The notes under the pieces are model-generated. The model made no database searches, was not told the origin of the DNA, and was given only the letters and a program-made list of their open reading frames with translations. A DNA stretch of 64,000 bases, from contig NZ_CP039690.1 of assembly GCF_005144885.1 (NCBI RefSeq), forward strand, positions 1,674,001 through 1,738,000. Direction: 5' to 3'. Shown here piece after piece: positions 21,451 through 37,843 of the stretch. Source of the stretch: Phreatobacter stygius. Lineage in GTDB: Bacteria; Pseudomonadota; Alphaproteobacteria; Rhizobiales; Phreatobacteraceae. How positions within the stretch are numbered: the first letter of the stretch is position 1; each line of letters begins with the position of its first letter. Made by a program: the position numbers and the translations under genes.

Positions 21451-24400
21451 TCACTCTCCAGGCTTGATCTGGGGCTGCTGGCCAGGCACGTGGACCGTTC
21501 CGCCCAGCGCCAGCCTGAGCCGTTCCAGCTCGAGATAGATCACCGGCGTCGTATAGAGCGTCAGAAGCTGGCTGAGCAGCAGCCCGCCAATGATGGTGAT
21601 GCCGAGCGGAATGCGCAATTCCGACCCGGTGCCCTGCTGCAGCGCCAGCGGCAGCGCGCCGAACAGGGCGGCCAGCGTCGTCATCATGATCGGCCGAAAT
21701 CGCAGCCGGCAAGCCTCGATGATCGCCGAGCGCGGGTCCATGCCGCGCTCCCGTTCCGCGTCGAGCGCGAAATCGATCATCATGATGGCGTTCTTCTTCA
21801 CGATGCCCATCAGCAGCACGATGCCGATCAGGGCAACCAGCGACAGGTCGTTGCCGGTCAGCCAGAGCGCCAGCAGCGCGCCGATGCCGGCCGAGGGCAA
21901 GGTGGAGAGAATGGTGATCGGATGGATATAGCTCTCATAGAGCACGCCGAGCACGATATAGATGACCACCACCGCGGCGAGGATCAGCCAGGGCTGGCCG
22001 GCGAGCGAACGGGCGAATTCCGCCGCCTCGCCGGTGAAATCGCCGGACACCGAGTCGGGTACGCCGAGCTCGGTGCGGGCCGCGGTAATCGCCGTCACCG
22101 CATCGCTCAGGGCCGCCCCGGCGGACAGATCGAAACTGACGGTGGCGGAGGGAAACTGCTCCTGGTTCGTCAGCATCAGCGGCGCCGTGCCGCGCTCGAT
22201 CCGGGCCACCGCCATGAGCGGCACGGGCACGGTGACGCCGGTCGTCTGGTTGACCGCCGGGACATAGAGGCGGGCGATCGCGGCGGGATCGCTGGCCTGC
22301 CGGGGGTCGGCCTCCAGGATCACCCGATACTGGTTGGTCTGGGCATAGATCGTGCTGATCTGGCGCTGGCCATAGGCATCGTAAAGCGTATCGTCGATGC
22401 CCTGGATGGAAACGCCAAGCCGGGACGCCGCGTCGCGGTCGATGACAATGGTGATCCGGCCGCCGCCCTCCTGGATCTCCAGCGAGACGTTGCGGAAATG
22501 CGGCTCGGTTTCGATCCGCTCGGCCAGCCGCCGGGCCCAGCTGACCACTTCCGGGCGTGATGCCCCGACCAGCGTATATTGATAGGCCGCGCGGCTCTCG
22601 GTCGAGCCGATCTGGATATCCGAGACCGGCCTGACGGTGACGACCGATCCGGTCAGGCTCTGCAACGCCGCCCGCTGCAGCCTGATGGCGATCTCGCTCG
22701 CGGTGTCCGCGCGGTCGTCGCGCGGTTTCAGGAAGATCTGCATCCGCACCATGTTGGTGGTCGGGTTGGAGGCGGCGGCGCCGGCCACCGAGACCAGTCC
22801 GGACACATCAGGGTCGGCGCGGAACAGGGTGGTCGCTTCTTCCTGCAGGCGCTTCAGTTCGGGAAACGACGTCGTCGGGCCGGCCTGCAGGATGGCGGTG
22901 AGAGCCCCGGTATCCTGCGGCGGCAGGAAACCCTTGGGCATGACGATGTAGAACCAGACGGTGATCGCCAGCGTCAGCGCGGTCAACAGCAGCATGCCGG
23001 CCGGACGGTCGACCACCCAGGCAACGCTGCGGCCATAAGCGTCGACCAGCCGCGAGCTCCAGTTCGGCCGCGGCTCGCCCGCCTCTTCCGGCTTCTGCTT
23101 CAACAGCCGGCTGCACATCATCGGGCTGAGCGTCAGCGACACCACCGCCGAGACCACCACGGCGATCGTCAGGGTCAGCGCGAACTCGCGGAACATGCGC
23201 CCGACCAGCCCGCTCATGAACAGGAGCGGGATGAACACGGCGACCAGCGAGACCGTCAGCGAGACGATGGTGAAGCCGATTTCCTTGGAGCCCTTGAGCG
23301 CCGCCTCGAACGGCGCCTCGCCTTTTTCCATGCGCCGGACGATGTTTTCGATGATGACGATGGCGTCGTCGACGACGAAACCGGTGCCGATGGTGAGCGC
23401 CATCAGCGACAGGTTGTCGAGCGAGAAGCCGATCAGCGACATGACGGCGAAAGTGGTGACCAGCGACAGCGGCAGGGCGACCCCCGCGACCACGGTGGCG
23501 CGCCACGAGCGCAGGAAGATCAGCACCACCATGACCACCAGCGCGACGCTGATCGCCAGCGTCAGCTGGACGTCGTGGATCGAGGCCTTGATCGTGCCGG
23601 TCCGGTCATTGACCACGGTCAGCCGGGCGCCGCTCGGCAGCGCGCGCTCCAGGCGCGGCAGTTCGGCCAGGACCCGTTCCACCGTCCTGACCACATTGGC
23701 GCCGGGCTGGCGCTGGATATCGATGACGATCGCCGGCTTGCCCTGATACCAGGCGCCGACCCGGGCGTTCTCCAGCCCTTCGCTCACCTGCGCCAGGTCG
23801 GACAGCAGCACCGGCGCGCCGTTGCGATAGGCGATGATGACGGCCTTGTAGGCCGAAACCGCGGTCACCTGGTCGTTGGCGGCGATGGTGAAGGACTGGC
23901 GCGGACCGTCGAGCGAGCCCTTCGGGCCGGCGACATTGGCATTGGCGATGGCCGTACGGACATCCTCAAGGCTGATCTGATAGGCGGCGAGCCGGCTGAT
24001 ATCGGCCTGGATGCGCACGGCGGGCTTCAGGTTGCCGGCAACCGACACCCGGCCGACGCCGGATATTTCGCTCAGGCGCTGGGCCAGCAGCGTGTCGGCA
24101 ATGTCGGCGAGGCGTTCGAGCGGTGCGGTCTCCGAGGTGATCGCCAGCGTCACGATCGGCGCATCGGCCGGGTTCACCTTCGAATAGGTCGGCGGATAAG
24201 GCAGGGTCCGCGGCAGCACCGAGCCGGCCGCGTTGATCGCCGACTGGACATCCTGCGAGGCCGCGTCGATGTCGCGGTCGAGATCGAACTGCAGCGTCAC
24301 CTGCGACAGTCCGAACGAGCTCGCCGAGGTCATGGTGGCCAGCGACGGGATCCGGCCGAGCTGGCGCTCGAGCGGCGCGGTGATCAGGGCCGCGACCGTG

Positions 24401-24570
24401 TCCGGATTGGCGCCGGGCAGCAGGGTGGTCACCTGGATGGTCGGAAACTCGACCTGCGGCAGCGACGAGACCGGCAGCCTGAGATAGCCCAGCACACCGG
24501 CCAGCACGAGCGCGAAGGCCAGGAGCGAGGTGGCGATCGGCCGGTGGATGAAGGGCGCGGAGACGTTCAT
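21451..24570 (-). CDS. RND efflux pump (MdtB/AcrB family), first pump of the operon
   Basis: A 1039-aa RND transporter from ATG 24570, which overlaps the adaptor stop by ATGA. It opens SAPFIHRPIATSLLAFALVL. TM4 has GFVVDDAIVIIENIVRRMEK with both relay Asp residues, and TM10 has GIVKKNAIMMIDFALDAERE. The mid-protein KGFLPPQDTGAL and the C-terminal LLLSQLLTLYTTPVIYLELE fit the family. It is more than a simple duplicate of the downstream pump, as many periplasmic segments differ. A long in-frame reading upstream to 25074 is the antisense-like shadow of the adaptor gene and was discarded. Confidence 0.92.
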   Translation of the reverse strand: MNVSAPFIHRPIATSLLAFALVLAGVLGYLRLPVSSLPQVEFPTIQVTTLLPGANPDTVAALITAPLERQLGRIPSLATMTSASSFGLSQVTLQFDLDRDIDAASQDVQSAINAAGSVLPRTLPYPPTYSKVNPADAPIVTLAITSETAPLERLADIADTLLAQRLSEISGVGRVSVAGNLKPAVRIQADISRLAAYQISLEDVRTAIANANVAGPKGSLDGPRQSFTIAANDQVTAVSAYKAVIIAYRNGAPVLLSDLAQVSEGLENARVGAWYQGKPAIVIDIQRQPGANVVRTVERVLAELPRLERALPSGARLTVVNDRTGTIKASIHDVQLTLAISVALVVMVVLIFLRSWRATVVAGVALPLSLVTTFAVMSLIGFSLDNLSLMALTIGTGFVVDDAIVIIENIVRRMEKGEAPFEAALKGSKEIGFTIVSLTVSLVAVFIPLLFMSGLVGRMFREFALTLTIAVVVSAVVSLTLSPMMCSRLLKQKPEEAGEPRPNWSSRLVDAYGRSVAWVVDRPAGMLLLTALTLAITVWFYIVMPKGFLPPQDTGALTAILQAGPTTSFPELKRLQEEATTLFRADPDVSGLVSVAGAAASNPTTNMVRMQIFLKPRDDRADTASEIAIRLQRAALQSLTGSVVTVRPVSDIQIGSTESRAAYQYTLVGASRPEVVSWARRLAERIETEPHFRNVSLEIQEGGGRITIVIDRDAASRLGVSIQGIDDTLYDAYGQRQISTIYAQTNQYRVILEADPRQASDPAAIARLYVPAVNQTTGVTVPVPLMAVARIERGTAPLMLTNQEQFPSATVSFDLSAGAALSDAVTAITAARTELGVPDSVSGDFTGEAAEFARSLAGQPWLILAAVVVIYIVLGVLYESYIHPITILSTLPSAGIGALLALWLTGNDLSLVALIGIVLLMGIVKKNAIMMIDFALDAERERGMDPRSAIIEACRLRFRPIMMTTLAALFGALPLALQQGTGSELRIPLGITIIGGLLLSQLLTLYTTPVIYLELERLRLALGGTVHVPGQQPQIKPGE

Positions 24571-25994
24571 GGGGTTGCCGGCCTTCCGCCGGGCTGCCCG
24601 CCGTTTTCGGCCCTGCGGCCACGCCGCCCCTGTTCGGGCTGCGGACCGGCCGGCGCCGGCGTGTCCTGGGCGGTCGGGTTGCCCGTCGCCGGCGCGCTCT
24701 GTGATGTCGGTGCGCCCGGTGATGCAGGCGAAGCCGGAGGCGTCACCTGGTCCGGCGTGCTGCCGGGGGCGCCCGCCGGCGCGCCGCCGGGAGCACGGCC
24801 ACCTTGGCCTTGCGCCACGCGCACCGCCGCGCCGTCGGCGAGCCGGGCGAAACCGATGGTCACCACGCGGTCCTGCGGCGTCACGCCGGTCAGCACCGCC
24901 AGGCCGTCGGCCTCGCGCGCCACCTGCACCGGCCGGACGCCGACGCTCGCCTCGTCCTTCATGACATAGACGAAAGTGCCGCTCGGGCCGCGCTGCACCG
25001 CTTCGCCCGGCACCACCGTCACGCCCTTGAGAATGTCGACCTCCAGCCGGACGGAGACATATTGGCCGGGCCACAGATGCGCCGCGTCATTGCCGAAGAT
25101 CGCCTTCAGCTTGACCGTGCCGGTGGTCTGGTCGATCTGGTTGTCGACCACCTCCAGCGTGCCGGTCTCCTGCACCCGTCCGCCTTCGGCGCCGACGATC
25201 TCGGTCTTCGGCCGGCCGCGTGCCAGCGCCGCGACCACCGTGCGCAACTGCTGCTGCGGCACGCTGAAGGTCACCGCGATCGGATTGACCTGAGCCACCA
25301 CGACAAGCCCGGTGGTGGCACTTGCCTGGACAAAATTGCCCTCGTCGATCATGCGGATGCCGGTCCGCCCGTCGATCGGCGAAACGATCGTCGTGTAGGA
25401 CAGCACCGCGCGGGCATTGTCGATCGCCGCCTGGTCGAGCCTGACCTGCGCCTCGTATTGGGCGACCAGCGCGCGCTGGGTATCGGCCTGCTGGCGCGAG
25501 CCGGAATTGTCGGTGGCGAGCCGGGTGTAGCGCGCGAGATCGAGCCGCGCATTGGCCAGGATCGCCTCGTCCTGCGCCTTTTTGGCGACCACCTGGTCAT
25601 ATTGCGCCTGGTAGACGGTCGGATCGATCCGCGCCAGCACATCGCCGGCCTTGACCGTCTGGCCTTCGCGGAAGGTGACCTCGATCAGCCGGCCGTCGAC
25701 CTGCGGCCGGACCGTCACATTGCGCAGCGGCAGCACCGTGCCGACCGCGTCGATATGAACCGGCACGTCGGCGACGCGCGGCGCGACCACCACGACGGAG
25801 GGCGGCGGATCGCCGGCAAAGCCGCCGCGCCGGCCGCCACCGCGGCCGCCGCCGCCACCCCGGGGCGCGGATGCGCCCGGCGTCGCGTCGGGTGACTGGG
25901 CCAATTGCGCCGGCCGGTAGATCTCCCACCAATAATAGCCGGCGCCGGCCGCGGCGGCGGCGAGAACCAGCAGAACAAGGCGCGACCGCGTCAT
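24567..25994 (-). CDS. RND periplasmic adaptor (membrane fusion protein)
   Basis: A 475-aa adaptor. An N-terminal membrane anchor (RLVLLVLAAAAAGAGYYWWE) is followed by the lipoyl-type half motif ADVPVHIDAVGTVLPLRNVT and KAGDVLARIDPTVYQAQYDQ (about residues 98-117). A coiled-coil hairpin comes next, then the beta-barrel (ATTGLVVVAQVNPIAVTFSV). The C-terminal 70 residues are a Pro/Gly/Ala-rich tail not typical of MdtA. The start at 25994 is set by the ATGA overlap with the NodT-type gene and a GGAGG eight bases upstream. It bridges the RND pumps and the outer-membrane channel. Confidence 0.9.
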   Translation of the reverse strand: MTRSRLVLLVLAAAAAGAGYYWWEIYRPAQLAQSPDATPGASAPRGGGGGRGGGRRGGFAGDPPPSVVVVAPRVADVPVHIDAVGTVLPLRNVTVRPQVDGRLIEVTFREGQTVKAGDVLARIDPTVYQAQYDQVVAKKAQDEAILANARLDLARYTRLATDNSGSRQQADTQRALVAQYEAQVRLDQAAIDNARAVLSYTTIVSPIDGRTGIRMIDEGNFVQASATTGLVVVAQVNPIAVTFSVPQQQLRTVVAALARGRPKTEIVGAEGGRVQETGTLEVVDNQIDQTTGTVKLKAIFGNDAAHLWPGQYVSVRLEVDILKGVTVVPGEAVQRGPSGTFVYVMKDEASVGVRPVQVAREADGLAVLTGVTPQDRVVTIGFARLADGAAVRVAQGQGGRAPGGAPAGAPGSTPDQVTPPASPASPGAPTSQSAPATGNPTAQDTPAPAGPQPEQGRRGRRAENGGQPGGRPATP

Positions 25995-27460
25995 GGCGTG
26001 CGCCTCCATTCAGCGTCCGCATTCGGCACGATGACCGTATGTGATGTTTCCGGCGTCCATCCGCCACCCAGCGCCTGGAACAGCAGGACCGAGGCCTGGG
26101 CCCGGCCGAGCCGGGCCTGGGCCAGCGCATCCTCCGACGAGAACAGCGTCTGCTGGGTGTTCAACAGGGTCACGATGTCGATGACGCCGGCAGTGATGCG
26201 GTCGTCGGTGATGCGGAAGGCCCGCCTCGCCGCCGCCACCGCCTGGGTCTGGTAGCGCACCTGTTCGGCGGTCTGCCTGGAGCCTTCGAGCCCGTTGCTG
26301 ACATCGGACAGCGCGGTCAGCACGGTCTTTCGATAGGTCTGCAGCGTCTCGTCGTGGAGCCCGCGTTGCAGCTCGAGATTGCCGCGCAACGTGCCGGTGT
26401 CGAAAATCGTCTGGGTGGCGCTCGCCGCGACCGAATAGATCGCCGAATGCGGCTGCAGCAGGAGCCCGAGCGCGGCGCTCTGGAAACCGCCCTGGCCGGT
26501 CAGGCTGATGGTCGGGAAATAGGCGAGCCTGGCAGCCCGGATATTGGCATCGAGGGAGGCGAGCCTGATCTCGGCTTCCTTCACGTCCGGCCGGCGCTGC
26601 AGCAGGTCGGAGGGCAGGCCCGGCCTGACCGACGGGATCGACAGGCTGGCGAGCGACCCGCCGCGCGGGCTGAATTGCTGCGGCACGCTGCCGACCAGGA
26701 TGGCCAGCGCATTGCGGGTCACGCCGACCTGCTGGCGCAGGCCGGGCACCGCCGCGCGCACGCTCGCCGCCAGCGCTTCCTGTTGCGAAATCTCGAAATC
26801 GGACACCGTGCCGGCGGTCGCCCGCGCCCTGATGGCGGCGAGGATGCGCGCCGCCGAGGCGGCATTGCGCTCGGCGATGGCGACCCGGTCCTGCAGCGCC
26901 AGCAACTGGAAATAGGTCGAGGTCACCGTCGCGGCGGTGACCAGGGCGACATGATCCTTGTCGACGCGGCTGGCTTCCGCCGTCGCCTGCGCCGCCTCCA
27001 AGAGCGTGCGGTTGCGGCCGAAGACATCCAGGATATAGGTCGTGCTGAGCGCGGTGGAGAACGAACTCGCCTCGAAACCGCCCCCCGACGAGCGCGCCCG
27101 GCTGCCGCTGGCGGTGCCGCCGAGCGTCGGCAGGAGCGGCGCCCGCGCGGTCATGATCTGCGCTTCGGCCTGGCGGATGCGGGCGATCGCCGCGCGGATG
27201 TCGAGGTTCTTGTCGAGCGCGGTCTCGACCAGCACGGTCAGCGCCGGCAACCGATAGGCGCGCCACCAGTTCGGGCTGATATTGCCGGCCTGAGGTAAGG
27301 CTTCGGTATAACGGACCGGCATCTGGAAGCCGAGCTCACGGGTCGGTGTATCGGTCGAGCAACCGCTGACGAGCAGACCGGCAAGCGTCATCATCAGCGC
27401 GCGAAAGACACGCGATTCTCTTTTCGAAGATCGTTCGATGCGTTCAACAATCGGCGACAT
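25991..27460 (-). CDS. NodT-family outer-membrane efflux lipoprotein (TolC-like)
   Basis: About 489 aa. A lipobox (LAGLLVSGC) follows an Arg-rich N-terminus, so the mature protein begins at Cys and is lipid-anchored. Two outer-membrane-efflux domains follow. These show ISPNWWRAYRLPALTVLVET, IRAAIARIRQAEAQIMTARA, RPDVKEAEIRLASLDANIRA and a C-terminal helix with LLNTQQTLFSSEDALAQARL. The start is uncertain: ATG 27460 is used, but an in-frame TTG at 27478 and an internal MM nearer the lipobox are possible. First gene of the efflux operon, with an ATGA link to the adaptor. Confidence 0.87.
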   Translation of the reverse strand: MSPIVERIERSSKRESRVFRALMMTLAGLLVSGCSTDTPTRELGFQMPVRYTEALPQAGNISPNWWRAYRLPALTVLVETALDKNLDIRAAIARIRQAEAQIMTARAPLLPTLGGTASGSRARSSGGGFEASSFSTALSTTYILDVFGRNRTLLEAAQATAEASRVDKDHVALVTAATVTSTYFQLLALQDRVAIAERNAASAARILAAIRARATAGTVSDFEISQQEALAASVRAAVPGLRQQVGVTRNALAILVGSVPQQFSPRGGSLASLSIPSVRPGLPSDLLQRRPDVKEAEIRLASLDANIRAARLAYFPTISLTGQGGFQSAALGLLLQPHSAIYSVAASATQTIFDTGTLRGNLELQRGLHDETLQTYRKTVLTALSDVSNGLEGSRQTAEQVRYQTQAVAAARRAFRITDDRITAGVIDIVTLLNTQQTLFSSEDALAQARLGRAQASVLLFQALGGGWTPETSHTVIVPNADAEWRRTP

Positions 27461-27483
27461 GATGCAGTTCTGTTGCAATCAAA

Positions 27484-27741: not shown

Positions 27742-28545
27742 TCAAGGCCTGACGGCGGGGGTCTCGACCGGCATGCCGCGCGCCCGGGTCGCGAGATAGA
27801 GCTCGAGTTCGATCGCCTCGGCCGACCCCGCCGCGACCGGTTCGGCCCGGATGCCGACCATGCAATTGCGCAGCCGGCGCGCCAGCGAACCGACCGACTG
27901 CCATTCCAGCCGGTAGATCGGATAGCCGGTCGGATGCGCCTGCGGGATCAGGCTGCTGCCGAGCCGGCGGCCCCAATTGTCGTCGTGGCACTGGCTGCAG
28001 GACAGGTTGAGCTGGCCCATCCGCCGGCGAAACAGGCTCTCGCCATTGGCGCGCGCGCCGTCGAGCCGGGCATCGTCGGGCGGCGCGATCGGCAAGCCGC
28101 GCGATTGCAGGCCGATGAAGGCGGTCAGGGCCAGCATGTCCTGGGATTCGGCCGGCAGCGGTACCGCGGCCTGACGCTCGCTGCGGCACTGATTGACCTG
28201 GCCGGTGAGATCGATCGGCCGGCCGCTGGCGGCATCGTAAGCCGGATAACGGGCCGCAACGCCGCGCATCGACGTCGCCGCGTCGCCATGGCAGTCGACG
28301 CAGGCAGCCCCTCTCGATCCGGTCCTGGCGGTCCACAAGGCTTCGCCCGAGCGGGCCGCCAGCATGCCCGGATTGGACGTGTCCTCGCGCTGCATGGCCT
28401 GGGTTTCCGCCTGCATCTGGTCGAAACCCGAGAGCCGCTCGGCCGGCGCGATGTCGCGCGCCGCCCCTGGCACGACCAATGCCCGCGAAACCAGGCCGAG
28501 CGCGACCAGTACCGAGGTCAACAGCACCAGGACCGGCGCCCGCAT
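27742..28545 (-). CDS. soxA: SoxA, diheme cytochrome c of the SoxAX complex
   Basis: A 267-aa periplasmic protein with an N-terminal signal anchor (MRAPVLVLLTSVLVALGLVS). It has two CxxCH heme sites: CVDCHGD (about residue 93) and CSQCHDDNWG (about 172). RNCMVGIRAEP near residue 222 provides the SoxA active-site Cys that carries sulfur and ligates heme. In known Sox systems SoxAX couples the sulfur substrate to the SoxY Cys oxidatively. The ATG at 28545 lies 2 bases after the soxZ stop. Last of the eight-gene operon. All catalytic features are present, so it is not decaying. Confidence 0.92.
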   Translation of the reverse strand: MRAPVLVLLTSVLVALGLVSRALVVPGAARDIAPAERLSGFDQMQAETQAMQREDTSNPGMLAARSGEALWTARTGSRGAACVDCHGDAATSMRGVAARYPAYDAASGRPIDLTGQVNQCRSERQAAVPLPAESQDMLALTAFIGLQSRGLPIAPPDDARLDGARANGESLFRRRMGQLNLSCSQCHDDNWGRRLGSSLIPQAHPTGYPIYRLEWQSVGSLARRLRNCMVGIRAEPVAAGSAEAIELELYLATRARGMPVETPAVRP

Positions 28546-28547
28546 GC

Positions 28548-28865
28548 TCAAGCCACCGTGATGGTGGCGGTCTCGCGCCAGACCTGGCCCTTGTCGTCGG
28601 TCCATTCGAAAAGGAACGGGCCGCTGGCCGTCGCGATGGTCGAGAACACGATGAACGGATTGGAGGCGATCGCCTGGGTCAGCTCCATGCGGAACACTTC
28701 CGCGCCGTCATAACGGCAGGTGAACAGCCGGATGATGTCGCGCGGCACCGGCTGGCCGTTGTCGTCCCTGTTGTAGCCGGTATGCATGGGGTGCGAGATC
28801 AGCGTCTTGATCTCGATGATCTCGCCGGCCTTGGCGCTCGTCGGCACGTTCAGGAGGGCAGCCAT
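28548..28865 (-). CDS. soxZ: SoxZ, sulfur-carrier partner protein
   Basis: A 105-aa immunoglobulin-like protein with the SoxZ hallmarks KAGEIIEIKTLISHPMHTGY, IIRLFTCRYDGAEVFRMEL and the C-terminal FEWTDDKGQVWRETATITV. It has no signal peptide; in known systems the SoxYZ dimer rides the SoxY Tat signal. ATG 28865 is chosen because GGAGGGG lies 5 bases upstream. The GTG at 28871 would overlap soxY by 4 bases but sits against the ribosome binding site. Confidence 0.93.
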   Translation of the reverse strand: MAALLNVPTSAKAGEIIEIKTLISHPMHTGYNRDDNGQPVPRDIIRLFTCRYDGAEVFRMELTQAIASNPFIVFSTIATASGPFLFEWTDDKGQVWRETATITVA

Positions 28866-28867
28866 GG

Positions 28868-29332
28868 TCACCCCTCCAGGCAGGCGGCCAGCGTCACGAT
28901 GACGTCGGCGGTCGAGGACCAGAACGTGCCGTCGCTCATCCGGGCGACGGCCGTGACCTGCTGGGTATCGGCCAGCCGGATGCGGGTGGCAAAGCCGGCC
29001 CGGCCCGAGCGCGGCCCGAAATAGCCGGTGGCGACATTCGGCTGCGGGTTCTTCTCGTTGAACACGGCGATGGCGGTGACGTGATCGGCCGCCGTCATCG
29101 GGCTTTCGACACTGACCGCCAGCGGCACGGTATTGCCATTTTCGACCAGCGGCGGAATGTCGAGCGTGACCCGGCCAACCGTCACCCGGTCGCCGCCGGT
29201 GAAGGCCCGGATCGCCTCGGCCATGGCGTCGGGCGTGGCGCGTGCCGGCCGCACCATGGCGAGCGACAGGAGGCCTGCGCCGGCCGCGAGGCAGGTCCGG
29301 CGCGACGGCAGGACGGCGATCGTCTCCGGCAT
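28868..29332 (-). CDS. soxY: SoxY, sulfur-carrier protein with noncanonical C-terminal arm
   Basis: A 154-aa periplasmic protein with a Tat-type signal (SRRTCLAAGAGLLSLAMVRP, cleavage after ARA). The body matches SoxY (VTLDIPPLVENGNTVPLAVS; ITAIAVFNEKNPQPNVATGY; RIRLADTQQVTAVARMSDG). In characterised SoxY the chain ends GGCGG, a flexible arm whose Cys holds the sulfur substrate. Here it ends VTLAACLEG, so the Cys is kept but the glycines are lost and it is fourth from the end. The carrier function may persist with different partners. ATG 29332 has GGGAG seven bases upstream. Confidence 0.9.
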   Translation of the reverse strand: MPETIAVLPSRRTCLAAGAGLLSLAMVRPARATPDAMAEAIRAFTGGDRVTVGRVTLDIPPLVENGNTVPLAVSVESPMTAADHVTAIAVFNEKNPQPNVATGYFGPRSGRAGFATRIRLADTQQVTAVARMSDGTFWSSTADVIVTLAACLEG

Positions 29333-29336
29333 CGGC

Positions 29337-29780
29337 TCACTCCCTGAGGCTAACGAGATAGGCAACGACATCCTCGATCTCCTGGGCGGTCAGGATGGTC
29401 CGGCCGCGCAAGGCCGGCGCCATCCGCTCGAACCCCTCGGTGCGAAAATAGGGCGGCATGATCGTGTCGGGGTTGAGACGCGATGCATCGATCAGCCGGA
29501 GCCTGAGCGCGGCGGCGCTCCAGCGGGCCCCCGCGCCGTCGAGCGGCGGTGCCAGATTGCCCATGAAACGCTCCTCCGGGATCGGTCCTGAATGGCACAA
29601 CAGGCAGAAACTCTTGCGCCGGTCGGCGACGATGGCGCGGCCGCGCGCCGCGTCGCCCGGCGCGTCGGTCAACGGCACGGCACCAGGATCCAGCGCGCCG
29701 GGGGCTTGCGGCCTGTCCTCGGCCACCGCCGCGGCAAGGCTCGCCAACAGGAAACCGAGCACCAGCATGGACCTAGCCAT
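29337..29780 (-). CDS. soxX: SoxX, monoheme cytochrome c
   Basis: A 147-aa secreted cytochrome with signal MARSMLVLGFLLASLAAAVA. One heme site, FCLLCHSG, is near residue 59, and DTIMPPYFRTEGF supplies the distal Met. The C-terminal IEDVVAYLVSLRE is typical of SoxX. It pairs with SoxA. The start overlaps the flavoprotein stop by 8 bases. Gene order XYZA is conserved, as in many sox operons. Confidence 0.9.
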   Translation of the reverse strand: MARSMLVLGFLLASLAAAVAEDRPQAPGALDPGAVPLTDAPGDAARGRAIVADRRKSFCLLCHSGPIPEERFMGNLAPPLDGAGARWSAAALRLRLIDASRLNPDTIMPPYFRTEGFERMAPALRGRTILTAQEIEDVVAYLVSLRE

Positions 29781-31056
29781 AGACGTCGCTGGTGATGGTC
29801 TGGAACCAGGCTTCGCCATAATGCGCCTCGGCCAGCCGCTGGTCGCGCGGCGCGTCCAGCGGGCTGGTGCCGCCGGCGCCCTCGATATCGGCGAGCAGGC
29901 CGTTGGCCGGCCGATAAACGCCGGCGACCGAGATGCCGTAATCCGGCGCGACCAGACTGTAGCAGGTGTTGATCAGCCGGACCGGCGGCGGCTCGGCGCC
30001 CTTGAGCAGGGCCGCAATCGCGAGCGCGCAGGCCTTGGCCTGGGCATTGGCCGAGAAAGCCGATTTCGGCATGGCGCCCATGATGCCGGCATCGCCGACG
30101 ATATGAATGCCCGGCTGGCGGCGCGATTCGAACGACACCGGGTCGACCGGGCACCAGCCGCTGCGGTCGGCGACGCCGGCGAGCTCGGCGATGCGGCCGG
30201 CGCGCTGCGGCGGGATGACATTGGCGACATCGGCCTTGTGCCGGCCGAAATCGGTGCTCAGGGTCCTGGTCTCGGCATCGACCGCGGTCACCGTGCCGCC
30301 GGCCGACTGGCCAACCCATTCGATCAGCCCGGGATAGAGCTCGTTCCAGGCACGCTGGAACAGCCGCTGCTTGGAGAACGTATCCTTGGCGTCGAGCACG
30401 ATCAGCTTGGACCGCGGTTTCCGCGCCTTCAGATACCAGGCGATCAGGCTGGCGCGTTCATAAGGCCCGGGCGGGCAACGATAGGGATTGGCCGGCACCG
30501 ACATGACCACCGTGCCGCCATCGGCCATGGCGTCCAGCTGGCGCGCCAGCAGCGTGGTCTGCGCGCCCGCCCGCCAGGCATGCGGCATGACCTCGGCGGC
30601 CGCCTCGCCGTAACCCTGGATGCCGCCGTGGTTCAGGTCGATGCCGGGAGCCAGGATCAGCCGGTCGAACCCAAGCGTCGCACCGGCCGCGAGCGTGACC
30701 TGCCGCGCCGCCGCATCGACGCCGGTGGCGGTGTCGATGACAACCTTCACCCCGGCGGCGGTCAGCCCGTCATAACCGAAGCGCTGCTGGTCGAGGCGGC
30801 GCAGGCCGACCAGCACCGCATTGCTGAACGGACAGGCGAGAAACGCCGCGTCGCGCTCGACCAGTGTCACGGCATGGCCGCTGCGGGCGAGCGCACGCGC
30901 GGCGGTGGCGCCGCCGAAACCGCCGCCGACCACCACCACCTGGGCCCGGCCCTGCGCGCGCGCCAGCCGCGGCGTGGCCAAGTCCACGACCGAACTCGCG
31001 ACCGAACTCGCCACGGCGCCCAGCAGGATCCGGCGGTTGAGGCTCTGATCCCTCAC
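29773..31056 (-). CDS. flavocytochrome c sulfide dehydrogenase, flavoprotein subunit (SoxF/FccB type)
   Basis: A 427-aa FAD protein with a Tat-like signal (NRRILLGAVASSVASSVVDL). The FAD-binding Rossmann motif is VVVVGGGFGGATAARALARS. The FCSD cysteines are all present: the FAD-linking Cys in ACPFSNAVLVG and a redox pair in YRCPPGPYERASLI and INTCYSLVAPDYG. The C-terminal FCSD domain ends AEAHYGEAWFQTITSDVYG. It oxidises sulfide or polysulfide and passes electrons to the small cytochrome encoded just upstream. The GTG start at 31056 overlaps that gene (GTGA). Confidence 0.91.
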   Translation of the reverse strand: MRDQSLNRRILLGAVASSVASSVVDLATPRLARAQGRAQVVVVGGGFGGATAARALARSGHAVTLVERDAAFLACPFSNAVLVGLRRLDQQRFGYDGLTAAGVKVVIDTATGVDAAARQVTLAAGATLGFDRLILAPGIDLNHGGIQGYGEAAAEVMPHAWRAGAQTTLLARQLDAMADGGTVVMSVPANPYRCPPGPYERASLIAWYLKARKPRSKLIVLDAKDTFSKQRLFQRAWNELYPGLIEWVGQSAGGTVTAVDAETRTLSTDFGRHKADVANVIPPQRAGRIAELAGVADRSGWCPVDPVSFESRRQPGIHIVGDAGIMGAMPKSAFSANAQAKACALAIAALLKGAEPPPVRLINTCYSLVAPDYGISVAGVYRPANGLLADIEGAGGTSPLDAPRDQRLAEAHYGEAWFQTITSDVYG

Positions 31057-31388
31057 GGCGGCTTCTCCCGGGCGAACCAGGCGGCGAGCGCCCTGATCTC
31101 GTCTTCCGAAAATCCCTTGGCGATACGGTCCATGACGGTGGCCGGCCGGGCGCCGGAGCGGAACGCCAGCATGGCCTCGGTCACCCCGTCGGCCGGCATG
31201 CCGGCGAGCGGCGGCACCAGGCCGCCCGATACCGCCGGATGGCAGCCGCCGCAGGCGAGCGCCCCAACGGGCATGGACTGCGGCACGGACTGCGCCCGGG
31301 CTGGCGTCCAGGCCAAGGCGAGGCCCGCCGCGACGCATGCCGTCGCGGCGACCCTGAGCGCGCCCATCGCTGGCCGCGGTCGCGCCAT
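31053..31388 (-). CDS. small monoheme cytochrome c (SoxE/FccA type)
   Basis: A 111-aa protein with a cleavable signal (ALRVAATACVAAGLALAWTP, ARA cleavage). One heme site, ACGGCHP, is near residue 46, with candidate distal Met residues in PPLAGMPADGVTEAML. Small size and the next gene (FCSD flavoprotein) fit the cytochrome subunit of flavocytochrome c. It could equally accept electrons from the molybdenum hydroxylase upstream. It starts 1 base after that gene's stop. Confidence 0.85.
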   Translation of the reverse strand: MARPRPAMGALRVAATACVAAGLALAWTPARAQSVPQSMPVGALACGGCHPAVSGGLVPPLAGMPADGVTEAMLAFRSGARPATVMDRIAKGFSEDEIRALAAWFAREKPP

Positions 31389-31389
31389 G

Positions 31390-33546
31390 TCAGGCCAGTT
31401 GCTGGTTCTTCAGCGGGATCGAACGGATGCGTTTGCCGGTCGCCGCGAAGATGGCGTTCAGCACCGCCGGCGCCGCCACCGCGATGGTCGGTTCGCCGAC
31501 CCCGCCCCAGAACCCGCCCGATGGCATCAGCACGAACTCGACCTTGGGCATCTCGTCCATGCGCACGACATTGTAGGTGTCGAAATTCTCCTGTTCCATC
31601 CGGCCGCCCTTGACCGTGCATTCGCCGTAAAGAAGCGCCGACAGGCCATAGGCGAAGGAGCCTTCGATCTGCGCCTCCACCTGCTGCGGGTTGACCACAT
31701 AGCCGGGGTCGGTGCTCGCCACGATGCGGTGGATCTTCAGCCGTCCCTGGGTGACCGAAACCTCGGCGCAGGCCGCGATATAGCTGCCGAAGGCCATCAG
31801 ATGAGCCAGCCCGCGGAACACCCCGGCCGGCGCCGGCGTGCCCCAGCCGGCCTTTTCGGCCACCGCGTTGAGCACCGCCAGATTCCGAGGGTTGTTGGTC
31901 ATGATCTCGCGCCGGAACGCCAGCGGATCCTTGCCGGCCTCCTTCGCGAGCTCGTCCATGAAGCACTCGACATAGATGGCGTTCTGGTTGGCATTGACGC
32001 CGCGCCAGAAACCCGGCGGCACATGCGGATTGCGCATGGCGTGGTCGACCAGCAGGTTCGGAATGGTGTAACCGAAGGCCGCCTCGCCGCTCGGCGCGAC
32101 ACCCTGGAACACCACGCGGTCGACGCCGTTCTGCATGTTCTGTGGCGCCAGCCCGGCCAGGATCGACTGGCCGGAAATGCGCATGTGCAGGCCGACGAGC
32201 TTGCCCGAGGCGTCGAGCCCGCCGACCATCTTGGCCTGGGTGATCGGGTGGTAGCGCCCGTGCAGCATGTCCTCTTCGCGCGACCACAGGAGCTTGACCG
32301 GAATGCCCGGCATCTGCTTGGCGATCAGCACCGCCTGGCGGACGAAATCATGGGTCGCGCCGCGCCGGCCGAAACCGCCGCCGAGATGCAGCTTGATGAC
32401 GTCGCAGTTCTGCACCGGCAGTTCGGCCGCGGCGGCGGCTGCCGCCAGCGCCGCCTCGCCGTTCTGGGTCGGGCACCAGACCTCCAGCTTGCCTGGCGTG
32501 AACCTGGCGGTAGCGTTCATCGGCTCCATCGTGGCGTGGTTCTGGAACGGGTAGTTATAGGTCGCCTCGACGGTCTTGGCGGCGCGCGCGATGGCGCCCT
32601 TGGCATCGCCCGCCTCGTTGCCGACATGGGCCTGCGGCGCGGCGAGGCCCTCCTTCAGCATGGCGTCGATGGTGGCGCTGCTGACCTGGGCGTTCGGCCC
32701 CTCGTCCCAGACGATCGGCAGGGCATCGAGCGCGGTCTTGGCCCGCCACCAGGTGTCGGCGACCACCGCCACCGCGCTGTCGCCGACCGCAACCACCTGC
32801 TTGACCCCGGGGCGGGATGCGATCGCCGCGGCATCGAAGCTCTTCACCTTGCCGCCGAACACGGGGCAGTCCTTGATCGCCGCGTTCAGCATGCCCGGCA
32901 GAACCAGGTCGGCGCCATAGACCTGCCGGCCGTTCAGCTTGTCGGCGGTGTCGAGCCGCTTCACCGGTTGGCCGGCGATGCGCCAATCCTTGGGGTCCTT
33001 CAGCGGCACGTCCTTGGGCGGCTCGATCCGGGCCGCCGCCGCGGCCACCTGGCCATAGCTGACCGAGCGGCCCGAGGCCGCATGGGTGATCCGGCTGTTG
33101 GCGGCCCGGCATTCGGAGGCCGCCACGCCCCATTGCTGTGCCGCCGCCGCGACCAGCATGACGCGCGCCGCAGCCCCACCCTGGCGGACATAGTCCTGGC
33201 TCTCGCGGATGCCGCGGCTGCCGCCGGTCGAATAATTGCCCCAGATCCGGCTGCGCGCCAGGTTCTGACCCGGCGTCGGATATTCGGTCGTCACTTTCGA
33301 CCAGTCGCATTCGAGCTCTTCGGCGACCAGCTGGGCAAGCCCGGTCAAGGTGCCCTGCCCCATTTCCGAGCGGGCGATGCGGATGACCACCGTGTCGTCG
33401 GGCCTGATGACGACCCAGGCATTGACCTCGGGCGGCAGGCCCTGGGCGAGCGCCTCGCCGTCGAAGGGCACGTGGAAACCGAGCGTGAAACCCGCGGCGG
33501 CCGAGCCGACCAGGAACGAGCGGCGTGAAACATCGAGCGTTGTCAT
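31390..33546 (-). CDS. molybdopterin-binding large subunit of an IorB-like molybdenum hydroxylase
   Basis: A 718-aa xanthine-oxidase-family catalytic subunit of the isoquinoline 1-oxidoreductase beta type. A Tat signal (SRRSFLVGSAAAGFTLGFHV) marks it as periplasmic. Cofactor segments include RIARSEMGQGTLTGLAQLVA, KLHLGGGFGRRGATHDFVRQ and GVAPSGEAAFGY. The C-terminal GGFWGGVGEPTIAVAAPAVL has the base Glu of GVGEP. Family members hydroxylate N-heterocycles or oxidise aldehydes. Being co-transcribed with FCSD and SoxXYZA is the unusual point: it may supply an oxidation step here. No coiled heme domain is fused to it, so electrons leave through the 2Fe-2S subunit and a cytochrome. Confidence 0.9.
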   Translation of the reverse strand: MTTLDVSRRSFLVGSAAAGFTLGFHVPFDGEALAQGLPPEVNAWVVIRPDDTVVIRIARSEMGQGTLTGLAQLVAEELECDWSKVTTEYPTPGQNLARSRIWGNYSTGGSRGIRESQDYVRQGGAAARVMLVAAAAQQWGVAASECRAANSRITHAASGRSVSYGQVAAAAARIEPPKDVPLKDPKDWRIAGQPVKRLDTADKLNGRQVYGADLVLPGMLNAAIKDCPVFGGKVKSFDAAAIASRPGVKQVVAVGDSAVAVVADTWWRAKTALDALPIVWDEGPNAQVSSATIDAMLKEGLAAPQAHVGNEAGDAKGAIARAAKTVEATYNYPFQNHATMEPMNATARFTPGKLEVWCPTQNGEAALAAAAAAAELPVQNCDVIKLHLGGGFGRRGATHDFVRQAVLIAKQMPGIPVKLLWSREEDMLHGRYHPITQAKMVGGLDASGKLVGLHMRISGQSILAGLAPQNMQNGVDRVVFQGVAPSGEAAFGYTIPNLLVDHAMRNPHVPPGFWRGVNANQNAIYVECFMDELAKEAGKDPLAFRREIMTNNPRNLAVLNAVAEKAGWGTPAPAGVFRGLAHLMAFGSYIAACAEVSVTQGRLKIHRIVASTDPGYVVNPQQVEAQIEGSFAYGLSALLYGECTVKGGRMEQENFDTYNVVRMDEMPKVEFVLMPSGGFWGGVGEPTIAVAAPAVLNAIFAATGKRIRSIPLKNQQLA

Positions 33547-33567
33547 GGCAATCCCCGTTTCAAACCG

Positions 33568-34032
33568 TCAGCCGCGACGCACGCCGCCATCGGCGGCGAG
33601 ATGGATGGCCGCGCGCACCCGGTTATAGGTGCCGCAGCGGCAGATATTGGTCATTTCGGCGTCGATATCGGCATCCGTCGGTTTCGGCTTGGCCGCCAGC
33701 AAGGCCACCGCCGCCATGATCATGCCCGACTGGCAATAGCCGCATTGCGGCACGTCGAGCGCCGCCCAGGCCTTCTGCACCGGGTGCGAACTATCAGCCG
33801 ACAGGCCCTCGATGGTGACGATCTGCTGCTCGGCGGTGATCGAGCCGACCGGCATCGCGCAGGAGCGCACCGGCTGGCCGTCGATGTGAACGGTGCAGGC
33901 GCCGCACTGGGCGATGCCGCAACCATATTTGGTGCCGGTCAGTCCGACCTGTTCGCGCAGCACCCAGAGCAGCGGCGTGTCGTCCTCGACCGTGACGTCG
34001 ACGGCCTTCCCATTGATCATCAATCTCGGCAT
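33568..34032 (-). CDS. 2Fe-2S small subunit of the molybdenum hydroxylase (IorA-like)
   Basis: A 154-aa protein with two [2Fe-2S] sites: the plant-ferredoxin-type [15 protein letters not shown] near residue 40, with a partner Cys in VRSCAMP, and the helical-domain CGYCQSGM plus CRCGTY near 98-135. No signal peptide; it probably crosses the membrane with the Tat-targeted large subunit. First gene of the eight-gene operon. It transfers electrons from the molybdenum centre to a cytochrome. Confidence 0.92.
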
Positions 34033-34642: not shown

Positions 34643-37600
34643 ATGCAGCAGCATATCAGGCAGGCCCGGGGCACGGCCAAGCGGGCCCTGCTCGCCGGCA
34701 CGGCCTTCACCGGCGCATTCATTGCGGTCATCGCCGGCCATCCCGGCAGCGCGCTTGCTGCCTGCACGGTTACGGCGGCGCCCAACACCGTCGCCTGCGC
34801 CACGACGGTCACGATTGCCTCGACGAATGTCGATGCGGCAAGCCCGTCGTCGAACGACTACAAGCAGCAGTTCACCGTCGGAGGCGCGGTGACCGCCAGG
34901 GTCAATGCCGGCCAGACGGTCATGGGCGAGGGGCTCTGGATCGCCGCGGACGAGCTCGGCGCGCCCCTGACGTTCACCAATAACGGCGCGCTGACGGGGT
35001 CCGCCAGCGCACTCCATCTCAGTTCCAATGGCGGGGACATCACTTATTCGGGCAATGGCAGTCTCAGCGGCATCTCCACCACGGGTGCCGGCCTCTTTCT
35101 CAACGCAACCGGTGCCGGCGCCATCACGGTCGGCGCGAGCGGCACGCCGGTCGCGGCCAATTTTTCCGGCGGGAGCGGCCTGGTCGCCCAATCGAATTCC
35201 GGCGCGATCGCCGTCTTTCTGAATGGCGGCGGCCTCGCGGCGACCGCTGCCACTGGAACGGGCTTGCTCTTGCTGAGCGGCGGCGGCGGAAACGTCTCCG
35301 CCCGGCTGATCAGCAACACGACGATCACCAATGCCAGCGGGGCCGCCAATGACACCGCTGGTATCGCTGCGCTGTCGTTCGGCGGCACAGTCACCATCGC
35401 TTCGAACGCCAATATCGGCAGCGCCGGCGCCGCGACGTCGTTCAAGAACGGCATTCAATTGAACGGGTCGGGCAGCGGAAATGTCAGCCTGTTCCAAGGC
35501 GGCACGATCTTCGCGACAACCGCGGGCGTCCGTGCGGAGCACAGTGGCGCAGGCCGGCTTTGGGTTGATACGGCCGCGGGCAGCGTGATCACCATGGCCG
35601 GCGGCGGCTCCGGTATCCAGGCCATCTCGACCGGCACCGGCGCGGTCGACGTCACGACCGCCGGCACGATCAGCGGAGGGGTGTTCGGCGTTCAAGCCTC
35701 CATGTTGAACGTCCTCAACGCCAGCAACATCATGGTCGCGGCGAACGGCAACATCACCGCCGCGAATACCGCCATCGCGGCCGTTACGCAGGGCACAGGC
35801 AGCGTGCTTGTGTCGATCGGCGCCGGTGCCACCGTGCAGGGCGCGGCCAGCATCGGTGTGCTGGTCGCGGGCGGCGGCGTCAACACGATCACCAACAACG
35901 GCGCGATCGCCGGCAACATAGGCATCGCGACGTCTCTGGGCCGGACCGCGGTGACGAATACCGGCAGCATCACCGGCACTGGCGGCATTGCGGTGATCCT
36001 CCTCGGTGCCAACAACCTCTTCAGCATGAGCGGATCGGCCGCGACGCTGACCGGCCAGGCGGTCGGCAGCGGCACGGACACCTTCCGCTTCGCCGGCGCG
36101 GGCGGCAATACGTTCGACGTCAGTCAGATCGGCTCGGGCTGGTCGCTTCTCGACAAGGCGGGATCGTCGAACTGGACGCTGACCGGTACCTCGACCTATG
36201 CCGGGCCAGTGACGGTGAGCGGCGGCACGCTGTCGGTGAACGGCAATCTCGCCTCGGCGGCGAGCCTGACGGTGAGCAGCGGCGGAACGCTCGGCGGCAC
36301 CGGAACGGTCGGCACGACCACGATCAATGCCGGCGGTGTGCTCGCGCCCGGCAACTCCCTCGGCACGATCACGGTCAGCGGCACTCTCACGCTCGCCGCC
36401 GGCAGCACCACCGTGATCGAAGCGTCGAGCGCCGGCACCGACCGCATCAACGTCACAGGCACGGCCAGTCTTGCCGGCGGCCTCCGCGTGGTCGGCCTCG
36501 GCACCGGGTTCAGCTTCGACACCCCCTACACGATCCTGTCGGCAGCCGGCGGCCGCACCGGCACGTTCTCATCCGTCGCGACGCTGTCACCGGCGCTGCG
36601 CGCGACCGTGATCTATACGGCGAGCGACGCGATCCTGACGCTGAAGCCCGGCCTCTTGCGGCCGGTCCTGCCGGCCGGCACGGGCACCAACCCGGGCAAT
36701 GTCGCCGGGGGCATCGACCGCGCGGTCCTCGGCGGCGCCAATGTCTCGGCCTTCTACCCGCTCTATGATCGGACGCCGGCGGGGATCGTCCAGGGCCTCG
36801 ACACACTCTCCGGCGAGGCGGCGACCGGCACCCAGCAGGCCGCATTCAACGCCGCGAGCCTGTTCCTCAACCTGATGCTCGATCCGATGGTCGGTAGCCG
36901 CGGCGCCCTGGCGTCGGGCGCCGGGCCGTCGCTGGTTCAGATGGCCGATCCGCCGGGCCCGGCGACACCGGGCCTGCGCGTTACGGAAAACTGGTCGATC
37001 TGGACCAAGGCCTTTGGCCAGTCCAGCCGGATGAATGCCGACGCGGCGGTCGGCTCGGCCCGCACCTCCGGCGGCCTCTATGGCGTGGCGGCCGGCGCCG
37101 ACCGCAGGCTTTCGCCCGACACGCTGGTCGGTTTCGCGCTGGCCGGCGGCGGCACCTCCTATGGCCTCGGCGGCCGCGGCGGCGGCACCGGCGATCTCTT
37201 CCAGATCGGCCTCTACGGCTCCACCCGCGTCCAGGACGGCTATGTCTCGGCGGCGATCGCCTATGGCTGGAACGGCTTCGACATCAAGCGCGACGTCAAT
37301 ATCGCCGGCCCCGAGGTCTATTCCTCACGCGTCACCGCCCAGACCTATGGCGCCCGGCTCGAGACCGGCTGGCGCTTCGGCTCAGCCGCCGCCGGCCTGG
37401 CCAGTTTCGGCTGGACACCCTATGCCGCCATCGAGGCCATTGGCTATTCCGCGCCGGGCTACCGCGAGGCGTCGACCCCGGCGGGCGGCGCCTTCGCGCT
37501 CAGCTTCGCGGCCAGGAGCACGGCGACGGCGCGCGCCGAACTCGGTGTCAGGCTCGACGGCAGGGCCCGCATCGCCGAAACCACCGACCTGATCACTTAT

Positions 37601-37843
37601 GGCCGGCTCGCCTGGGCCTATCAGGCCAATACCGAGCGCTCGCTCAACGCGACGTTCCAGACCCTGGCCGACTCCGGCTTCACCGTGTTCGGCGCCAGAC
37701 CGTCCATGCATACCGCGCTGGCGACCCTCGGCGCCGAACTGCGCTTCGCCAATGGCCTCAGGCTGTCCTCGACCATCGAGGGCGAGCTCGGCGAGCGGCA
37801 CCAGGCGATCCGGGCGAATGCCGGCCTCAGATACGCCTGGTGA
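34643..37843 (+). CDS. type V autotransporter (AT-1) with beta-helix passenger
   Basis: A 1066-aa secreted protein. A long signal region (RALLAGTAFTGAFIAVIAGH, cleavage near ALAA) is followed by a Gly/Ala/Thr/Ser-rich passenger with repeated beta-strand patterns (about residues 40-510). Autotransporter-associated repeats come next (TSTYAGPVTVSGGTLSVNGN; GVLAPGNSLGTITVSGTL, about 515-590). A C-terminal translocator barrel from about residue 780 starts ENWSIWTKAFGQSSRM and ends AGLRYAW, with a terminal aromatic residue as is usual. No protease triad was recognised, so adhesion is more likely than proteolysis. It is flanked by a direct repeat and may be a recent insertion. Confidence 0.9.
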   Translation: MQQHIRQARGTAKRALLAGTAFTGAFIAVIAGHPGSALAACTVTAAPNTVACATTVTIASTNVDAASPSSNDYKQQFTVGGAVTARVNAGQTVMGEGLWIAADELGAPLTFTNNGALTGSASALHLSSNGGDITYSGNGSLSGISTTGAGLFLNATGAGAITVGASGTPVAANFSGGSGLVAQSNSGAIAVFLNGGGLAATAATGTGLLLLSGGGGNVSARLISNTTITNASGAANDTAGIAALSFGGTVTIASNANIGSAGAATSFKNGIQLNGSGSGNVSLFQGGTIFATTAGVRAEHSGAGRLWVDTAAGSVITMAGGGSGIQAISTGTGAVDVTTAGTISGGVFGVQASMLNVLNASNIMVAANGNITAANTAIAAVTQGTGSVLVSIGAGATVQGAASIGVLVAGGGVNTITNNGAIAGNIGIATSLGRTAVTNTGSITGTGGIAVILLGANNLFSMSGSAATLTGQAVGSGTDTFRFAGAGGNTFDVSQIGSGWSLLDKAGSSNWTLTGTSTYAGPVTVSGGTLSVNGNLASAASLTVSSGGTLGGTGTVGTTTINAGGVLAPGNSLGTITVSGTLTLAAGSTTVIEASSAGTDRINVTGTASLAGGLRVVGLGTGFSFDTPYTILSAAGGRTGTFSSVATLSPALRATVIYTASDAILTLKPGLLRPVLPAGTGTNPGNVAGGIDRAVLGGANVSAFYPLYDRTPAGIVQGLDTLSGEAATGTQQAAFNAASLFLNLMLDPMVGSRGALASGAGPSLVQMADPPGPATPGLRVTENWSIWTKAFGQSSRMNADAAVGSARTSGGLYGVAAGADRRLSPDTLVGFALAGGGTSYGLGGRGGGTGDLFQIGLYGSTRVQDGYVSAAIAYGWNGFDIKRDVNIAGPEVYSSRVTAQTYGARLETGWRFGSAAAGLASFGWTPYAAIEAIGYSAPGYREASTPAGGAFALSFAARSTATARAELGVRLDGRARIAETTDLITYGRLAWAYQANTERSLNATFQTLADSGFTVFGARPSMHTALATLGAELRFANGLRLSSTIEGELGERHQAIRANAGLRYAW

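Follow-up and report, generated by a model that had tools for sequence, protein, structure and literature searches.

A conserved Sox gene cassette linked to a predicted exported molybdenum hydroxylase in Phreatobacter stygius and many other bacteria

The window analysed here is a stretch of 64,000 nucleotides from Phreatobacter stygius (contig NZ_CP039690.1, positions 1,674,001 to 1,738,000). It carries a tight operon on the minus strand, running from 34032 to 27742, in which the genes for the small and large subunits of a putative molybdenum hydroxylase (MoS and MoL), a small cytochrome c and an FCSD flavoprotein are followed by those for SoxX, SoxY, SoxZ and SoxA. A sequence-only reading of the window had placed these eight genes on this strand at these positions, and both the places and the identities held up, with family matches above cut-off for most of the products. 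No SoxB or SoxC was found within the operon (27742-34032). The features are as follows.

33568..34032, minus strand: MoS, small 2Fe-2S subunit (IorA-like), 154 amino acids; Pfam Fer2_2 96.7 bits, Fer2 37.9 bits
31390..33546, minus strand: MoL, large molybdopterin subunit of the xanthine oxidase (XO) family, 718 amino acids; MoCoBD_1 121.5 bits, MoCoBD_2 110.8 bits
31053..31388, minus strand: small c-type cytochrome, 111 amino acids; one CGGCH, with the CxxCH at residue 46; PF13442 below cut-off
29773..31056, minus strand: FCSD flavoprotein (SoxF-like); FCSD_central 166.8 bits, FCSD-flav_bind 89 bits
29337..29819, minus strand: SoxX, monoheme (CLLCH); TIGR04485 76.1 bits, cut-off 61
28868..29371, minus strand: SoxY of the AACIE-arm type; TIGR04487 225.3 bits, cut-off 172; C-terminal AACLEG with Cys164
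28871..28888, minus strand: codons of the SoxY arm (AACLEG), which replaces GGCGG; read from the sequence
28548..28871, minus strand: SoxZ; TIGR04490 87.2 bits, cut-off 76
27742..28545, minus strand: SoxA, diheme, active-site Cys kept; TIGR04484 216.6 bits, cut-off 110; two CxxCH

Two of the starts differ from those assigned mechanically to the open reading frames (ORFs): FCSD probably begins at the GTG at 31056 instead of 31338, and SoxA probably at the ATG at 28545 instead of 28605.

The MoCoBD domains together with the 2Fe-2S small subunit, all recognized by Pfam, place the operon among those encoding XO-family molybdenum hydroxylases, and MoS and MoL are thus predicted to form such an enzyme with an export motif. 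The motif, SRRSFLV near residue 8 of MoL, is one that we take to be of the twin-arginine (Tat) type, and the Glu of the GVGEP (G-x-G-E) loop of the same protein is presumably the catalytic Glu of this enzyme family. The best solved relative of MoL was the large subunit of a molybdenum aldehyde dehydrogenase (8gy3_C, E=1e-80), with an alignment that covers residues 6-713 including the GxGEP loop, although the similarity is distant. To our knowledge no Sox partners are known for 8gy3. The sulfite-oxidase type domain PF00174 gave no match in MoL, whereas the SoxC encoded elsewhere in the genome does match it.

SoxX and SoxA resemble their Kelly-Friedrich counterparts in having the c hemes and the active-site Cys. 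Cys248 of SoxA (numbering of the 287-residue ORF) aligns with a Cys of SoxA 1h31 that we take to be catalytic. SoxY can be aligned to SoxY 2oxg as far as the arm Cys, and a SoxYZ pair with a C-terminal Cys is a further feature shared with the Kelly-Friedrich system. The GGCGG arm of Kelly-Friedrich SoxY is missing, and the protein scored 105 bits against the true SoxY model TIGR04488, under the cut-off of 125. It is a clear member of NCBIfam TIGR04487, 'SoxY-related AACIE arm protein'.

The genome, a single contig of 7.35 Mb, has a second sox locus. SoxB (842 bits) and SoxC (631 bits) are encoded near 6.42 Mb, along with a GGCGG-arm SoxY, SoxZ, SoxA, an FCSD-like flavoprotein, cytochromes, a DsrE-like protein, a sulfur transporter and an ArsR-type regulator that is BigR-like but under the BigR cut-off; no SoxX was identified there by the family searches made. 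SoxB and SoxC are therefore missing from the operon and not from the cell. A co-regulated soxB/soxCD set elsewhere, which the sequence-only reading had held to speak against its proposal, is half in evidence, as SoxB and SoxC are both present at the distant locus.

The distribution of the cassette was examined in a class sample of 385 genomes, in which a genome was called AACIE if it encoded a SoxY above the TIGR04487 cut-off, and in a scan of named genomes, rich in Bradyrhizobium, from which the best 80 of 471 relatives were kept. The two sets may have species in common. The class sample contained 21 AACIE genomes, and the named carriers include Bradyrhizobium, Methylobacterium, Microvirga, Enterovirga, Tardiphaga, Neorhizobium, Acetobacteraceae, Arenibaculum and one Methylibium, a genus that the tree taxonomy files under Sphaerotilaceae. 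Twenty class-sample loci above the cut-off were fetched with their flanks and joined to the 80 named ones, giving 100 loci; one locus of 3.2 kb (L024) was left uncounted. A flank of at least 6 kb upstream and at least 2.5 kb downstream of SoxY was available for 78 of the 100. In 75 of these 78, MoS and MoL are adjacent to SoxY, and SoxX (78), SoxZ (77), SoxA (78) and FCSD (69) are likewise nearly always there. All 75 loci with MoL and sufficient flank have a single gene order, which is conservation far beyond chance. Among the 22 loci excluded for short flanks MoL was visible in 13.

Neither SoxB nor SoxC was found on either strand at any of the 78 loci, by a search that did recover SoxB at three canonical loci (L075-L077). 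The cassette thus differs from the Kelly-Friedrich system in lacking these proteins, in its AC-x-E/D arm instead of GGCGG and in having an XO-family molybdenum enzyme in the operon. This part of the interpretation in the sequence-only reading is supported: Sox carriers and an exported molybdenum hydroxylase form a conserved unit that omits SoxB and SoxCD, with one order in 75 of 75 loci, and the unit is also present in genomes that gave no SoxB match. Nine further loci have a SoxY below the TIGR04487 cut-off. Five of them (L070-L074) have MoL beside SoxY, and three (L075-L077) are canonical with a GGCGG arm and SoxB. At the ninth, L078, SoxXYZA is present and MoL was not visible; that genome encodes MoL elsewhere. 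In a phylum sample 13 of 378 genomes were above the cut-off, 11 outside the class sample and 2 within it, and 8 of the 13 belong to one genus; judged by coordinates, MoL lies within 5 kb of SoxY in all 13. Three of these carriers, with genomes of 1.7-2.1 Mb and from another class, have a bare MoS-MoL-SoxX-Y-Z-A set at the locus.

The functional residues are conserved along with the gene order. An -AC- arm, most commonly in the form VTLAAC-x-E/D, was present in all 102 SoxY proteins from loci that hold MoL, and four canonical SoxY proteins in the same comparison end in GGCGG. SoxA retained two hemes and the active-site Cys in 94 of 94 cases (the Cys by pattern in 81 and by eye in 13), the heme was kept in all 97 SoxX proteins examined, and the G[VLI]GEP loop in 89 of 89 members of the MoL clade. 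Within cassettes, MoL proteins are on average 71% identical and the Sox proteins 60-64%. A different arrangement was noticed at two rhizobial loci (L117, 7908-10349, and L118, 7929-10363), where SoxY, SoxZ, a cytochrome c and FCSD occur with no SoxXA, SoxB or molybdenum enzyme alongside; there the SoxY arms end in TNGC plus one residue.

The association between this SoxY type and MoL also holds at the level of whole genomes. With the two best candidates per genome scored, each of the 21 AACIE genomes in the class sample had a member of the MoL clade (two of them as partial matches at contig ends), as against 10 of the 364 others (Fisher p=2e-27, kinship ignored). Six of those ten (G039, G044, G099, G128, G135 and G183) encode a MoL-linked SoxY under the cut-off. 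The three loci with no MoL nearby (L064, L125 and L191) are from genomes that each have a MoL-clade gene elsewhere, and at two of them (L125 and L191) the cassette consists of two separate pieces, MoS-MoL-cytochrome c-FCSD and SoxX-Y-Z-A, both of which were retained. Adjacency alone does not account for the co-occurrence of MoL and SoxY. For SoxB no such association was seen: it was detected in 39 of the 385 class genomes, namely in 3 of 21 AACIE genomes and 36 of 364 others (p=0.46). The 18 AACIE class genomes with no SoxB match include three that are only 82-89% complete. Among 27 carriers tested, 4 had a SoxC above cut-off, and 2 of these 4 belong to the 21 AACIE genomes. The cassette does not need SoxB, yet often coexists with it.

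A quick MoL tree with a midpoint root was built from 72 of 117 proteins after removal of near copies, proteins with stops having been dropped before alignment. A group of 61 rows with support 100 contains 50 of the 55 that are Sox-linked; the five outside are from L204, L206, L207 and, twice, L208. Sox-less plasmid rows from Sinorhizobium, Methylosinus and Agrobacterium are nested in this group, where the nodes that unite them with Sox-linked rows have support values of 89, 89 and 98. Other cases are of a different kind: at L213 and L214 the contig stops beyond FCSD and the Sox genes lie on separate contigs, the Sox genes that go with L201 are at another place, and three Sox-less rows (L200, L202 and L203) are basal in the tree. 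At 199 columns that are conserved in 92 Sox-linked MoL proteins, the plasmid Sox-less rows depart in 3-13 positions and the basal Sox-less rows in 13-18 (L200 in 18, L202 in 16), while the Sox-linked rows themselves have a median of 1 and a maximum of 15. Comparison of Sox-linked and Sox-less MoL revealed no clear Sox-specific signature. A c-type cytochrome gene adjoins the Sox-less plasmid MoL of Sinorhizobium, Methylosinus and Agrobacterium.

Since the AACIE-type Sox part was never seen without the MoL clade where this was tested, and MoL without Sox genes exists, the Sox part apparently needs MoL. Conversely, the nesting of Sox-less proteins with a little-changed core inside the clade indicates that MoL can work without SoxYZ. 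This independence speaks both against replacement of SoxCD and against a required SoxY-bound substrate. The cassette is in our view a real, conserved and functionally linked variant of Sox.

Several more distant MoL relatives were noted. At L204, L206, L207 and L208, MoL subfamilies of 40-55% identity stand beside SoxY/Z/A with arms of the form GAC-x-E, and L208 has two MoSL copies in tandem. Relatives of about 60% identity without Sox genes occur at L226, L227 and L228, with XdhC- and MobA-like genes at L227 and a cytochrome c-like ORF at L228.

An arrangement of this kind is already in print. For Starkeya novella, the second sox cluster of the species, named soxX2Y2Z2A2F2, was described in 2013 as including an XO-family molybdenum enzyme (Snov_1975/1976) and as lacking SoxB and SoxCD (PMC3797975). 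SoxAX and SoxYZ of the second cluster were undetected in S. novella proteomes and transcripts of the cluster were very low, while one SoxF-like subunit occurred at low level, except on glucose; the authors of that paper saw no functional significance and left other growth conditions open. The likeness covers SoxAX, SoxYZ, a SoxF-like flavocytochrome c and an XO-family molybdenum enzyme in one operon lacking SoxB and SoxCD, and in both genomes a fuller main sox cluster exists besides the second one; the match is one of description. As far as could be found, literature searches for the cluster returned no account besides PMC3797975, and the text available there does not explain the function. New relative to it, as far as that text goes, are the spread, the arm change and the dependence on MoL, that is, the breadth and logic of the cassette. 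In another paper (PMC11237559), a SoxY survey deleted sequences without the GGC motif; carriers of the AACIE type would therefore have dropped out. A looser parallel is the quinoprotein-dehydrogenase-associated SoxYZ-like carrier (TIGR04557; PP_2677), likewise a SoxYZ-type carrier tied to a periplasmic dehydrogenase.

The explanation that we tentatively prefer, at a confidence somewhat short of even, is a periplasmic module of two parts, in which MoL oxidizes an organic compound and SoxXA loads the resulting sulfur on SoxYZ. MoL would hydroxylate a small periplasmic organic molecule of the aldehyde or heterocycle type, probably one containing sulfur, and the electrons would pass to c-type cytochromes. 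The thiol or sulfide set free in this way may then be attached by SoxXA to the arm Cys of SoxY, and free sulfide would be taken care of by FCSD. The main substrate is probably a compound other than thiosulfate, and the barely noticeable expression of the S. novella cluster on thiosulfate (PMC3797975) agrees with this module. With more reserve, we put forward the possibility that the cassette represents a distinct and widespread periplasmic sulfur branch, an obligate partnership of an XO-type molybdenum hydroxylase, which attacks the carbon of an organosulfur compound, with a SoxXA/SoxYZ system with an AC-x-E/D arm, independent of SoxB and SoxCD, which collects the sulfur.

Several observations weigh against the two-part module. 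FCSD is missing from 9 of the 78 loci, and among 27 loci compared there is no widely conserved neighbour outside the cassette that could name the substrate; an ABC-transporter ATPase family occurs in 8 of the 27, at scattered positions. At L199 (9308-12915, genome G066) MoS and MoL are followed by SoxX and SoxA with hemes and Cys intact, with no SoxYZ at the locus and no SoxY match genome-wide. No heme-motif ORF was found close to the Sox-less MoSL of L201, L202, L226 and L227. The incompleteness of three of the 18 genomes with no SoxB match belongs here too, as does the finding that 30 of the 48 named carriers, including 16 Bradyrhizobium, have SoxB and may there use it in trans. Finally, none of the conditions tried with S. 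novella led to significant expression of its cluster (PMC3797975).

That MoL replaces SoxCD and oxidizes the SoxY-bound sulfane, as the sequence-only reading had suggested, might be expected from SoxC being a molybdenum protein as well and from the absence of SoxCD from the operon. SoxC is however of the sulfite-oxidase type (PF00174), while MoL is of the XO type with an aldehyde dehydrogenase-like loop; the genome has its own SoxC, and 18 of 21 AACIE genomes gave no match to SoxB, whose step would have to come earlier in the pathway. Sox-less MoL relatives exist, and the nested ones keep nearly all invariant residues. On grounds of family, phylogeny and the little-changed MoL core we abandoned this proposal as very unlikely. 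Oxidation by MoL of a substrate bound covalently to the SoxY arm at the time, the second suggestion of the sequence-only reading, would fit the strict co-occurrence of MoL and SoxY and the altered arm motif in 102 of 102 SoxY proteins. We nevertheless consider it unlikely, because SoxYZ-less MoL within the Sox-linked clade has changed in only 3-13 of 199 invariant columns, G066 retains MoL with SoxXA and without SoxYZ, and MoL shows no clear Sox-specific signature. The cassette could also supply additional isoforms for normal thiosulfate oxidation, with SoxB and SoxCD provided by the main locus. SoxB in the P. stygius genome and in 30 of 48 named carriers is in line with this back-up role, which is weakened by the 18 of 21 AACIE class genomes, and 18 of 48 named ones, with no SoxB match. 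The similar S. novella set was not significantly expressed on thiosulfate (PMC3797975), and Bradyrhizobium diazoefficiens, which has soxY1 and a soxY2 that may or may not be of the AACIE type, requires soxY1 alone for thiosulfate oxidation (PMC5748708). We regard this role as quite improbable.

A close rival of the two-part module, if in itself rather unlikely, assigns to the Sox part the servicing or protection of the molybdenum enzyme, by restoring its sulfido ligand or by clearing sulfide and thiols that poison it. XO-family enzymes require a terminal Mo-sulfur ligand, and the direction of dependence, of the Sox part on MoL and not the reverse, is the one that this role would produce. It also agrees with the XdhC- and MobA-like genes beside some Sox-less MoL relatives, as compared with an XdhC match near only 2 of 88 Sox-linked loci (one XdhC query, of limited sensitivity); the XdhC contrast is however small and confounded by phylogeny. 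Sulfuration is normally cytoplasmic and precedes Tat export, which argues against such a role, and Sinorhizobium has MoSL with neither Sox nor XdhC matches nearby. A possible precedent by analogy is a fused SoxYZ-like carrier tied to pyrroloquinoline quinone (PQQ) alcohol dehydrogenases, for which PMC12997753 proposes maturation or cofactor protection.

The cassette is widespread and occurs in many soil and freshwater bacteria. It could add the oxidation of organosulfur compounds or aldehydes to the roles of SoxYZ. Sox genes are in common use as markers of thiosulfate oxidation, and conclusions of that sort about many soil and plant-associated bacteria would be led astray by a SoxXYZA set that lacks SoxB and SoxCD, accompanies a molybdenum enzyme of a carbon-oxidizing type and occurs in genomes with no SoxB match.

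No SoxY relative was found in viral contigs with a single-protein query. A promoter and terminator scan of the window was uninformative, with one promoter-like site (mean of 0.5 in shuffled sequences) and one terminator-like site (mean 2.8). Of 94 regions upstream of MoS, 17 contain a palindrome, CAATC-N4-GATTG, close to the start of the gene; it mostly begins 33-34 bases ahead of that start (for example at L047, L130 and L192). Named Bradyrhizobium loci make up 16 of the 17, and the palindrome is absent from the window. To judge by eye, the ORFs just downstream of the operon, at 21451-27478, resemble an RND efflux transporter together with a membrane fusion protein and an outer membrane factor. 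On the other side, a large plus-strand ORF at 34643-37843, divergent from the operon, resembles by eye an autotransporter barrel protein.

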